Shown here: positions 25,250 to 28,477 of the stretch, piece after piece
Layout of the letters: each line of letters begins with the position of its first letter
Numbering within the stretch: position 1 is the first letter of the stretch
From: Komagataeibacter swingsii
Lineage (GTDB): Bacteria; Pseudomonadota; Alphaproteobacteria; Acetobacterales; Acetobacteraceae
Direction of reading: 5' to 3'
NCBI RefSeq assembly: GCF_003207895.1
Contig: NZ_NKUB01000002.1
Coordinates: 1-64,000, forward strand
Length of the DNA stretch: 64,000 nucleotides
The notes under the pieces: generated by a model
What the model was told of the DNA's origin: nothing
What the model saw: the letters and a program-made list of their open reading frames with translations, nothing else
The model's database searches: none
Made by a program: the position numbers and the translations under genes

Positions 25250-25567
25250 TTCCCTGAACTGGACTGAGGCGCGGGAATATATTTCAGCCGATAATGCATG
25301 AAAATCCCTTCCGCCCCCTTCGCCCGCATGGCAGCCTTTCGGGCCGTGGGGCGCAACATGCCCGCACGATTGCGCGAAACCACATGCCAACGCCCGGACA
25401 GCGTTCAGGAATGCGCCCGGATCATGCCACGGCCGAACATGGGGCGAAATCATCACGGCGGCCCTTTTGCTGGCGGCGCGAAGTGTATAGCATCCTGTTC
25501 CGACAGCAGACCTACGCCGCGCCGGGCCTGCCGCGTGTTCCTCATGGCGCCATGCAGGGAGTAAGGC
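25250..25567. other. Divergent intergenic region
   Basis: About 320 bases between the hydroxylase and the DyP peroxidase, divergently transcribed. No domain-bearing frame; it presumably holds both promoters. AGGGAG/TAAGG immediately precedes the GTG start of the peroxidase. Confidence 0.4.
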
Positions 25568-26605
25568 GTGCCTTCAGCTACACCACAGCCCGTTGACACC
25601 ACATTGACCAGCGCCGCGATTTTCCTGATCTTCACGCTGGCCCCCGATGGCGGGGATGATGGGGCCACCTTGCGTGGCCTGTATGGCGACCTGTCCGCGC
25701 TGGCGCGCGGGGTGGGTTTCCGCATTCCCGACGGGCGGCTGTCCTGTGTCGCGGGGATCGGGTCGGATGCGTGGGAACGTGTTTTCAAGGGACCGAAACC
25801 AAAGGAACTGCACCCCTTCCGCGCCATCCATGGGGTGCATGAAGCCCCTGCCACCCCCGGTGACCTGATGTTCCACATCCGTGCGACGCGCATGGACCTG
25901 TGTTTTGAACTGGCGGCCGCCATCACCGCCCGGCTGGACGGCGTTGCGCGGGTGGTGGATGAAGTCCACGGGTTCAGGTATTTCGATGCCCGTGACCTGC
26001 TGGGCTTTGTCGATGGCACGGAAAACCCGGTCAACCAGGCCGCGACCGACGCCACCGTGATTGGTGGGGAAGACCCCGATTTTGCGGGCGGCAGTTACGT
26101 CATCATCCAGAAATACCTGCATGACCTGAAAAAATGGGACGCCATTCCCGTCGAGCAGCAGGAAAGGATCATCGGCCGCAAGAAGCTGTCGGACATTGAA
26201 CTGCCCGAGGCGGCCAAGCCCAGCTACGCCCATAACGTCCTGACCAATATCGAGGAAAATGGCGAGCAGTTGCAGATCGTGCGCGACAACATGCCCTTTG
26301 GCGAAGTGGGCAAGGGTGAATTCGGAACCTACTTCATAGGCTACGCAAAGACCCCCACCCGTGTGGAACGGATGCTGGACAACATGTTCATTGGCAACCC
26401 GCCGGGCAATTACGACCGCCTGCTGGATGTCAGCCGCGCGGTGACGGGCGTGCTGTTTTTCATTCCCACTGCCGATTTCCTTGACGCCGCCCCCACATAT
26501 GGCGATGCGGCCGCACCTGCGGACAGCCCTGAAAACGCACCAGCCCGCCCGCCCGCCACGCCCAATGATTCGCTTGGCATCGGGTCACTGAAGGAAGAAG
26601 CCTGA
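25568..26605 (+). CDS. DyP-type peroxidase with C-terminal encapsulin-targeting peptide
   Basis: Dye-decolorizing heme peroxidase. The GxxDG motif is GFVDG (146-150, catalytic Asp149), the likely proximal heme His is His222 (SYAHNV), and the distal Arg is Arg239 (IVRDNMPF). After the barrel, an Ala/Pro-rich linker (~311-333) leads to DSLGIGSLKEEA (334-345), which carries the LGIGSLK-type cargo-loading peptide that docks enzymes inside encapsulin shells. The GTG start at 25568 follows GGAGTAAGG. The shell gene begins 1 base after this stop, so they form an operon encoding a peroxidase-filled nanocompartment for peroxide handling. The physiological substrate is unknown. Confidence 0.95.
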   Translation: MPSATPQPVDTTLTSAAIFLIFTLAPDGGDDGATLRGLYGDLSALARGVGFRIPDGRLSCVAGIGSDAWERVFKGPKPKELHPFRAIHGVHEAPATPGDLMFHIRATRMDLCFELAAAITARLDGVARVVDEVHGFRYFDARDLLGFVDGTENPVNQAATDATVIGGEDPDFAGGSYVIIQKYLHDLKKWDAIPVEQQERIIGRKKLSDIELPEAAKPSYAHNVLTNIEENGEQLQIVRDNMPFGEVGKGEFGTYFIGYAKTPTRVERMLDNMFIGNPPGNYDRLLDVSRAVTGVLFFIPTADFLDAAPTYGDAAAPADSPENAPARPPATPNDSLGIGSLKEEA

Positions 26606-26606
26606 C

Positions 26607-27413
26607 ATGGACAACCTGCACCGCAACCTTGCCCCAATTTCCGACGCCGCATGGGCGGATATCGAACAGGAGGCATCCCGCACGCTGCGGCGCTACCTTG
26701 CCGGCCGCCGTGTCGTGGACGTGCCCGAAGCCCGTGGCGTCGGCCTTGCCGCCGTGGATACCGGCCATACCGCCCGTATCGACAGCCCGGCGGACGGCGT
26801 GCGGGCGCTGCAGCGCAAGGTCCTGGCGCTGGTGGAACTGCGCGTCCCCTTCTCACTCAGCCGCGATGCGATTGACGATGTGGAACGCGGGGCGCTGGAT
26901 TCCGACTGGCAGCCGCTGAAGGACGCGGCAAGGAAAATCGCCTATGCCGAGGACCGCGCGATATTCGACGGCTATGCCGCAGCCGGAATCCGGGGGATCG
27001 GGCAGGATACATCCAACGGCCAGTTCTCGCTGCCCGCATCCCCCCGCGACTATCCCGCCATCATTGCCAATGGCCTGAATGAACTGCGGATCGCGGGCGT
27101 AAACGGCCCCTATTCGGTCGTGCTGGGCGCGCGCGCTTTTGCCGCCGTAAGCGGCGGGAGCGAGGACGGCTACCCGGTCCTGCGCCACCTTGAACGGATG
27201 ATCGAGGGCAGGATCATCTGCGCCCCGGCCATCGAAGGGGCCTATATCCTGTCCACCCGTGGCGGTGATTTTGAACTGGATATCGGGCAGGACGTCTCCA
27301 TCGGCTACAGCAGCCATTCCGCCACATCGGTGGAGCTGTACCTGCAGGAAAGCTTCACCTTCCGCGTGCTGACGACCGAAGCCTCGGTCGTGATAAGGCA
27401 TGCTGGCGCGTAA
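26607..27413 (+). CDS. Encapsulin nanocompartment shell protein (family 1)
   Basis: Family 1 encapsulin (linocin M18/CFP29-like, HK97 fold), which self-assembles into a shell around the DyP cargo. The N-terminal NLHRNLAPISDAAWADIEQE segment, which forms the cargo-peptide binding site, is well conserved; RVPFSLSRDAIDDVERGALD and YPVLRHLERMIEGRIICAPA follow. 268 aa matches T=1 encapsulins. It starts 1 base after the peroxidase stop. No ferritin-like second cargo is seen nearby. Confidence 0.96.
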   Translation: MDNLHRNLAPISDAAWADIEQEASRTLRRYLAGRRVVDVPEARGVGLAAVDTGHTARIDSPADGVRALQRKVLALVELRVPFSLSRDAIDDVERGALDSDWQPLKDAARKIAYAEDRAIFDGYAAAGIRGIGQDTSNGQFSLPASPRDYPAIIANGLNELRIAGVNGPYSVVLGARAFAAVSGGSEDGYPVLRHLERMIEGRIICAPAIEGAYILSTRGGDFELDIGQDVSIGYSSHSATSVELYLQESFTFRVLTTEASVVIRHAGA

Positions 27414-27478: not shown

Positions 27479-28477
27479 CTACCTGGGCATGGCCAGCGGC
27501 CCGTCGGGTGGCGTGCAGCCATGCGGGCCGCAGCGTAGCGCCTTCATCATGGCGGCGGCGACAAGACCATGCGCCCTGCCGGTGGGGTGGATTTCATCCC
27601 ACCACAGATGGGTGTCGGGCCGGGCGCAGGCCTTGCGTGGCTGGGGTAGCGTGACCTGGCACGGCGTTGTCACGTCACGGATATGATAACGGGCGGCGTC
27701 ATGGATGATCGCGTCCGTTGCCGCCTTCCATGAAAACCAGCCGATCGTGGCATTGCCCGCCTGTACCGCAGGCAGCAGGGCCGTACGCAACTGCTGGTCG
27801 AAATCCGTTTCAAACTGCCGGGCCTGCGCCACGGCTGCCGCGCTGGCCGATACCGCCGGGATCGTATCCAGCCCATAACTTCCAAAAACCATGAAATGGC
27901 GCGCCCCGTGCCGGATCAGGAGCATGGTGGCATCAGCCACGTCGGTTGCACAGGCAAATGCCATGTCCGGCAGGGAAACCGGCGTTGAATAATCCATTTT
28001 CTGCAGGAAATCGTTCGCGGACGCCCCAAGGACATAAAGGGCATCCGGGTCCACCCTACGGTTTGTCGCAATGAAGGACAGGACCTGCGCGCGCAATCCC
28101 GTGTCGCGCCATCCGTCCAGCCATGCAAAGTAATTGCCGCTGCCACACCGCGCACCACCCACGGCAAGGTTGGTCAGCCCGACCCCAAGCTTCCGGGCCA
28201 GGTATTCCACCGCCGTCGGGCCGTTGCTCCACCGGCCATGCCAGTACTCCATGCTGGCCGGGGCGGCAGGCAGGGGAACCGCACCCGTAATCCGCGCGCG
28301 TATGGCGTCACCCGATATGGCTTCAGCCGCACCATCATCACTGTAGCTGTCGCCAAAAACGTACAGATGGCTGTACCCGGTGGATCGCGCCCATCCCATA
28401 TGGGGCATGCAGCCTGCCGCCATAAACGCGGCAAAGGCCACCATGGCAGCCATTTTTACGGTCTTGGGTATCTTCAT
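27479..28477 (-). CDS. GDSL/SGNH-family lipase/esterase, lipoprotein
   Basis: Exported esterase with SGNH blocks: VFGDSYSD (block I, Ser near residue 44), GGAR (block II Gly), GASANDF (block III Asn, one residue longer than GxND) and DEIHPTG (block V Asp-His). The signal ends in MAAGC, a good lipobox, so it is probably an outer membrane lipoprotein. 332 aa resembles the thermolabile-hemolysin/lipase branch. Leftward, with its 3' end facing the encapsulin gene. Substrate unknown. Confidence 0.88.
   Translation of the reverse strand: MKIPKTVKMAAMVAFAAFMAAGCMPHMGWARSTGYSHLYVFGDSYSDDGAAEAISGDAIRARITGAVPLPAAPASMEYWHGRWSNGPTAVEYLARKLGVGLTNLAVGGARCGSGNYFAWLDGWRDTGLRAQVLSFIATNRRVDPDALYVLGASANDFLQKMDYSTPVSLPDMAFACATDVADATMLLIRHGARHFMVFGSYGLDTIPAVSASAAAVAQARQFETDFDQQLRTALLPAVQAGNATIGWFSWKAATDAIIHDAARYHIRDVTTPCQVTLPQPRKACARPDTHLWWDEIHPTGRAHGLVAAAMMKALRCGPHGCTPPDGPLAMPR

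Follow-up and report, generated by a model that had tools for sequence, protein, structure and literature searches.

Why does the peroxidase encoded at this locus carry three further residues, Glu-Glu-Ala (EEA), after the peptide that loads it into an encapsulin shell? The two adjoining genes lie in a stretch of 64,000 nucleotides of Komagataeibacter swingsii DNA (contig NZ_NKUB01000002.1, positions 1 to 64,000), which we call the window. Our answer, held with good confidence and drawn from sequence comparison, is that the genes form a two-gene DyP-encapsulin operon in which EEA probably results from in-frame translation of the shell gene's Shine-Dalgarno sequence, rather than being a loading element.

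The operon and its products

The features of the locus are as follows.

25555-25564, + strand: probable ribosome-binding site of the DyP gene (CAGGGAGTAA; the same in all five aligned Komagataeibacter loci)
25568-26605, + strand: DyP-type heme peroxidase gene, the predicted encapsulin cargo (GTG start, 345 aa, C-terminal end ...ARPPATPNDSLGIGSLKEEA)
26486-26566, + strand: Ala/Pro-rich flexible linker of DyP (27 aa, 9 Ala and 7 Pro)
26567-26593, + strand: cargo-loading peptide D-SLGIGSLK (published motif GSLxIGSLK in passages of PMC10960027)
26591-26602, + strand: probable ribosome-binding site of the shell gene (codons AAG GAA GAA GCC, K-E-E-A)
26607-27413, + strand: Family 1 encapsulin shell gene (ATG start, 268 aa)

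A single base separates the end of the DyP reading frame (26605) from the start of the shell reading frame (26607). The original prediction had described both this interval and the Pro/Ala linker followed by a loading peptide, and both are as it described them. The two products scored far above the cut-offs of their families in searches with Pfam and NCBIfam profiles. DyP contains both the N- and C-terminal Dyp_perox domains (Dyp_perox_C, 195 bits; TIGR01413, 282 bits with a cut-off of 100.5), and the shell matched Linocin_M18 (306 bits) and encap_f1 (NF041155, 335.9 bits with a cut-off of 100). Linocin M18, the name of a bacteriocin, is the older name of the shell family.

The closest solved chains to DyP are 8u4z and 9e5e_B, and the shell is 61% identical to that of the E. 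coli DyP encapsulin (9e5e) and 62% identical to that of Klebsiella (8u4z/8u50). The proximal His222 and distal Arg239 of DyP align with His225 and Arg242 of the Klebsiella enzyme, and Asp149, which we take to be the distal heme-site Asp, sits in the sequence DGTEN. In the shell, Arg34, Asp38 and Asp229 match, by ungapped alignment, the residues that passages of PMC10960027 name as peptide-binding in Klebsiella, and they are invariant in 21 of 21 aligned shells. The Klebsiella pneumoniae system (8u4z, 8u50; PMC10960027) shares gene order, loading motif, heme His/Arg and docking residues with the window. It differs in having Gly instead of Asp before SLGIGSLK, so that DSLGIGSLK matches the motif with Asp for its first Gly, and Ile instead of Val at shell position 230. 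The predicted shell model appears to have the HK97 fold of a Family 1 encapsulin (mean pLDDT 75.7; TM about 0.84 to 9e5e and 8u50), with a weak stretch at residues 35-53 and an rmsd of about 9 Å to PDB encapsulins.

Because family models, solved relatives and conserved residues agree, a DyP cargo loaded into an encapsulin shell by a C-terminal peptide is well supported as the system type, as originally predicted; the system as such is already known. By comparison with solved relatives, DyP would fold in the cytosol as a heme-bearing hexamer, and its C-terminal SLGIGSLK would dock in a groove of the shell protomers, on their inward-facing side. Sixty shell subunits (T=1 in the solved relatives) would then enclose about one or two DyP hexamers, and peroxide would enter by the pores and be reduced while a small reductant is oxidised.

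A pattern coding for LGIGSLK matched once in the 3.73 Mb genome, at DyP, and the reversed control pattern did not match. This search, limited to the exact pattern, found no second cargo, and no further DyP relative was found in the same genome. Between 25380 and 27560 there were no sigma-70-like promoter sites, with 0.6 expected by chance, and four terminator-like sites with 1.4 expected, all of them within the two genes. A conserved upstream block at 25486-25493 reads TATAGAAT in four relatives and TATAGCAT in the window.

The tail beyond the loading core

The tail was compared across related operons. We examined 127 loci and compared 125, leaving out L052 and L104 (tail not near the shell, or no shell start); another 9 loci were set aside because they duplicated a place already sampled. 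Loci L001-L080, the best 80 of 123 relatives of the window shell, bias the sample towards close kin. For counting, 10 rows were dropped from the 125: six that duplicate a species or sequence already present (L082-L086, L115), two whose shell is broken or truncated (L098, L099), and the Epilithonimonas loci L053 and L054, which have the same tail and spacing as L046 (97 nt, no extension). This gave 115 rows, or 110 without Bacteroidota, and the identical pairs L009/L116, L031/L108 and L093/L101 were kept. The loci are related and were chosen by likeness to the window shell, so the counts given here are not independent and are inflated by kinship. A second set of 14 plasmid operons, picked for spread and lying outside the set from which the idea was formed, includes Klebsiella, E. 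coli, Burkholderia, Caballeronia, two Streptomyces, Tsukamurella and Rhodococcus.

The original prediction regarded the EEA extension as unusual, a view that the comparison of 125 loci overturned. At least one residue follows the SLK core in 101 of 115 loci, and in 32 of the 42 rows from acetic acid bacteria. Two Glu residues follow the core in 18/115 loci and exactly EEA in 4/115. The first residue after the core is Glu in 33 and Lys in 32 of the 115, and the second is Glu in 60.

This frequency of Glu and Lys would fit a reading in which EEA belongs to the loading signal and tunes the binding of DyP to the shell. A purine-rich Shine-Dalgarno sequence in that frame would also yield Lys and Glu codons, however, and the extensions vary widely among loci. 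The tag ends exactly at SLK in 11/110 loci, and seven of these rows, from six genomes, belong to the same genus as the window. In the Klebsiella structure ten peptide residues were modelled, ending at the core Lys, and loading changed little when the Lys that follows it was mutated (passages of PMC10960027). We consider a loading role for EEA very improbable.

The nearly constant feature is the number of nucleotides between the core's final codon and the shell start. Of the 110 non-Bacteroidota loci, 83 have 13 nt, 107 fall within 12-16 nt and the remaining three have 17, 19 and 25 nt; across all 125 loci, 117 fall within 12-16 nt. The distance from the DyP stop to the shell start ranges from -20 to +16 nt in the same 110 loci. 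The window has 13 nt from core to shell start and a stop-to-start gap of 1 bp. In many Alphaproteobacteria tails of the KEAGHE kind extend past the shell start, with an overlap of 8 nt (seen in 45/110 loci); in the window's group a TGA replaces the Gly codon of such tails, which leaves EEA and the 1 bp gap. A distance of about 13 nt is found with stop-to-start values of -20, -8, -4, +1, +7 and +12.

The plasmid set behaved similarly. Core and shell start are 13 nt apart in seven operons, 14 nt in three, and 12, 11, 10 and 25 nt in one each, so that 12 of 14 fall within 11-14 nt and the exceptions are 25 and 10 nt. The E. coli plasmid copy (L159), with the tail SLNIGSLK-KEVQNE, has the same 13 nt as the window. 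In a Nitrospira metagenome-assembled genome (L055) the KEAG unit is doubled (KEAGKEAGYE); the core lies 25 nt from the start and a second purine block stands at the usual distance.

The window has a candidate ribosome-binding stretch for the shell gene, containing AAGGAAGAA, at this place. Its AAGGA (26591-26595) runs through the tag's Lys codon and on to the second base of the next one, which encodes the first Glu. Over positions -18 to -4, a Shine-Dalgarno match of at least 5 bases was present in 54/110 loci, compared to a mean of 7.7% of intervals within DyP genes (107 loci), and 43 of these 54 sites fall entirely within DyP codons. The match was just 3-4 bases in the other 56/110. Where the tag ends exactly at SLK, the purine block lies in the spacer, and 10 of these 11 loci have a match of 5-6 bases. 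None of the five Bacteroidota loci has a match of at least 5 bases. A free-energy (duplex) test for Shine-Dalgarno pairing gave a weak result (median percentile about 0.10; window 0.14).

Could the constant spacing instead reflect common descent with few insertions or deletions, and have no role in ribosome binding? Many of the loci are close kin, and the weak energy test fits this view. So does parsimony on the tree, where the core-to-start distance needs at least 17 changes and the stop gap at least 22; the contrast between the two lies in their range more than in the number of changes, which does not differ by a wide margin. Yet about 13 nt is kept while the overlap changes, including in Actinomycetota and in Enterobacteriaceae plasmid operons. 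The five Bacteroidota rows, all lacking the motif, have spacings of 16, 16, 18, 52 and 97 nt, two of them thus still at 16 nt, and in the Sphingobacterium contig L052 the distance is 1422 nt. We regard descent alone as an unlikely explanation.

The comparison favours the reading of the EEA codons as the shell gene's Shine-Dalgarno sequence, in frame and 13 nt from the shell start, and translation of the shell would then be coupled to the end of cargo translation. Ribosome-binding sites that overlap the end of the preceding gene are common in bacterial operons, so this reading of the tail is an explanation and not a new principle. In passages of one paper the DyP stop of M. tuberculosis is described as overlapping the shell start; judged by title and abstract, the papers found on encapsulins and Shine-Dalgarno sequences do not deal with an overlap of tag and ribosome-binding site. 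On balance, though less firmly than for the window itself, we favour a broader proposal: outside the sampled Bacteroidota, the last codons of the tag may also serve the shell gene as its ribosome-binding site. For the window, this site, about 13 nt from the start, would begin with the tag Lys codon; in Klebsiella that Lys is essential to loading. Tag and cage translation would then evolve as one element that may set the ratio of cargo to shell, and residues beyond the tag would be by-products.

The residue before the core

The residue preceding SLGIGSLK is Gly in 100/115 loci and in the other loci of the window's own lineage (lineage A, below), and Asp in the window. The change is visible in the codons, GAT in the window compared to GGT in Komagataeibacter sp. 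FXV3 (L002, NGSLGIG), and Asp occurs there in just two of the 115 loci, the window and L126. Replacing Gly with Ala at the same place in Klebsiella substantially decreased loading (passages of PMC10960027). Loading of DyP might therefore be poor or fail altogether in this strain. Against this, the SLGIGSLK core is unchanged, neither reading frame is interrupted and the docking residues are conserved, and we think poor loading rather improbable. Impaired loading caused by Asp would be a prediction and not a conclusion, because Thr, Ser, His, Ala and Gln also occur naturally at this position (13/115).

Distribution and likely use in acetic acid bacteria

Of the loci with a species name among the best 80 of 123 relatives, that of Komagataeibacter europaeus LMG 18890 is closest to the window's (shell 97%, DyP 93%). 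All 19 genomes of the genus that were searched have a shell match, each with a DyP gene adjoining one, and passages of PMC8776678 report the operon in all Komagataeibacter type strains, with mixing between genera. In genome G007 the shell is cut by contig ends, and in G009 (L099/L103) it is divided over two frames, and the operon there may be broken or the result of misassembly. In a wider sample of the family the shell was found in 39/299 genomes (31/250 among good genomes).

Lineage A comprises six genomes, including that of the window, with shells 89-97% identical to the window's. As far as the contigs reach, its operon lies between an LpxO/OlsC-like hydroxylase gene and a Mop-type gene. 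Other shells of the genus are 62-68% identical and lie, judged by shared flanking families, in at least four other neighbourhoods. Over the 19 genomes, the operons (L136-L155) sit in at least five different neighbourhoods. G011 carries both lineages, G018 has two operons in different neighbourhoods, and in G017 (L148) two operons about 12.7 kb from each other encode the same shell and the same DyP and have repeated flanking genes. Simple insertion into an empty slot was considered and not borne out: the 13 genomes of the genus without lineage A have the hydroxylase (4) or a phosphoribosyltransferase (9), never both. In the window, the shell and Mop genes are separated by a GDSL lipase-like gene (27479-28477, - strand). 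It is absent from the compared loci of other genomes, many of which have short flanks; the remaining loci of lineage A have some 120-260 bp at that point.

Klebsiella operons occur with formate dehydrogenase and rpoH genes in mobile regions (passages of PMC10960027), and neither gene flanks the window operon. On the Klebsiella (L158), E. coli (L159) and Roseateles (L161) plasmids a gene of the rpoH/sigma-70 family lies downstream of the shell and faces it; no such gene stands beside the window operon. The enterobacterial operon is transposon-associated (passages of PMC12140327), whereas lineage A of Komagataeibacter has a fixed neighbourhood.

In a quick tree with a midpoint root, the 42 rows from acetic acid bacteria form one starred clade beside, not inside, a Bradyrhizobium group. 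As its root is not an inferred one, the tree is only a caution regarding the transfer from Bradyrhizobium considered in PMC8776678. The Linocin M18 clusters of that source are the same kind of operon, described there as encapsulin plus Dyp-type peroxidase. It lists them among peptide (RiPP) clusters, in a section that does not discuss tail or spacing, and its passages describe the cluster as found exclusively in acetous species. The operon is also present in Acidisphaera sp. S103 (L043) and in an Acetobacteraceae metagenome-assembled genome (L031). The original prediction held the role of the system in acetic acid bacteria to be little explored. This stands as regards experiments on acetic acid bacterial DyP-encapsulin operons, of which we found none in the literature, but not as regards presence, spread and the encapsulin-DyP assignment, which PMC8776678 had already published.

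The suggested link between the caged DyP and oxidants from periplasmic sugar oxidation is weak, because DyP has no visible signal peptide: inspection by eye showed no export signal, and its N-terminus aligns with those of solved encapsulin-associated DyPs. Furthermore, the periplasmic dehydrogenases of acetic acid bacteria feed quinones and are not known to make peroxide directly.

Use of the operon in lignin or phenolic breakdown has been proposed for acetic acid bacteria by analogy with DypB of Rhodococcus jostii (passages of PMC8776678). A caged enzyme with no visible export signal would hardly reach polymeric lignin, although small phenolics are possible substrates, and we judge this use highly unlikely. 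In passages of PMC12654741 a Dyp-type peroxidase is mentioned solely as a degrader of pigment.

Peroxide defence is the likely use, by analogy with related systems, and perhaps peroxide defence under acid conditions. The cage would not be the sole such defence, since the genome has a catalase gene: two places match the catalase family, with 602 and 61 bits. PF00141, the family of KatG-type peroxidases, had no match in this genome.

The interior of acetic acid bacteria acidifies during growth on acetic acid, and the low-pH behaviour of the enterobacterial system would suit such cells. In passages of PMC12140327, activity of the enterobacterial DyP encapsulin rises towards low pH, the shell is intact to pH 4.6 and disassembled at pH 3.6, and on a bulky dye the free enzyme is more active than the caged one. 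Intracellular pH homeostasis is among the means of acid resistance of acetic acid bacteria given in passages of a vinegar metaproteome study (PMC13214618), the main text of which contains none of the terms dyp, encapsul, bacteriocin, linocin or peroxidase.

If the residues after the loading core are, as is probable, the trace of a nucleotide signal, trimming or recoding them in the native operon should alter shell output and not loading. The natural Gly-to-Asp change in the tag would provide a cheap test of how strict the tag is, in a harmless food bacterium that faces both acid and oxygen.
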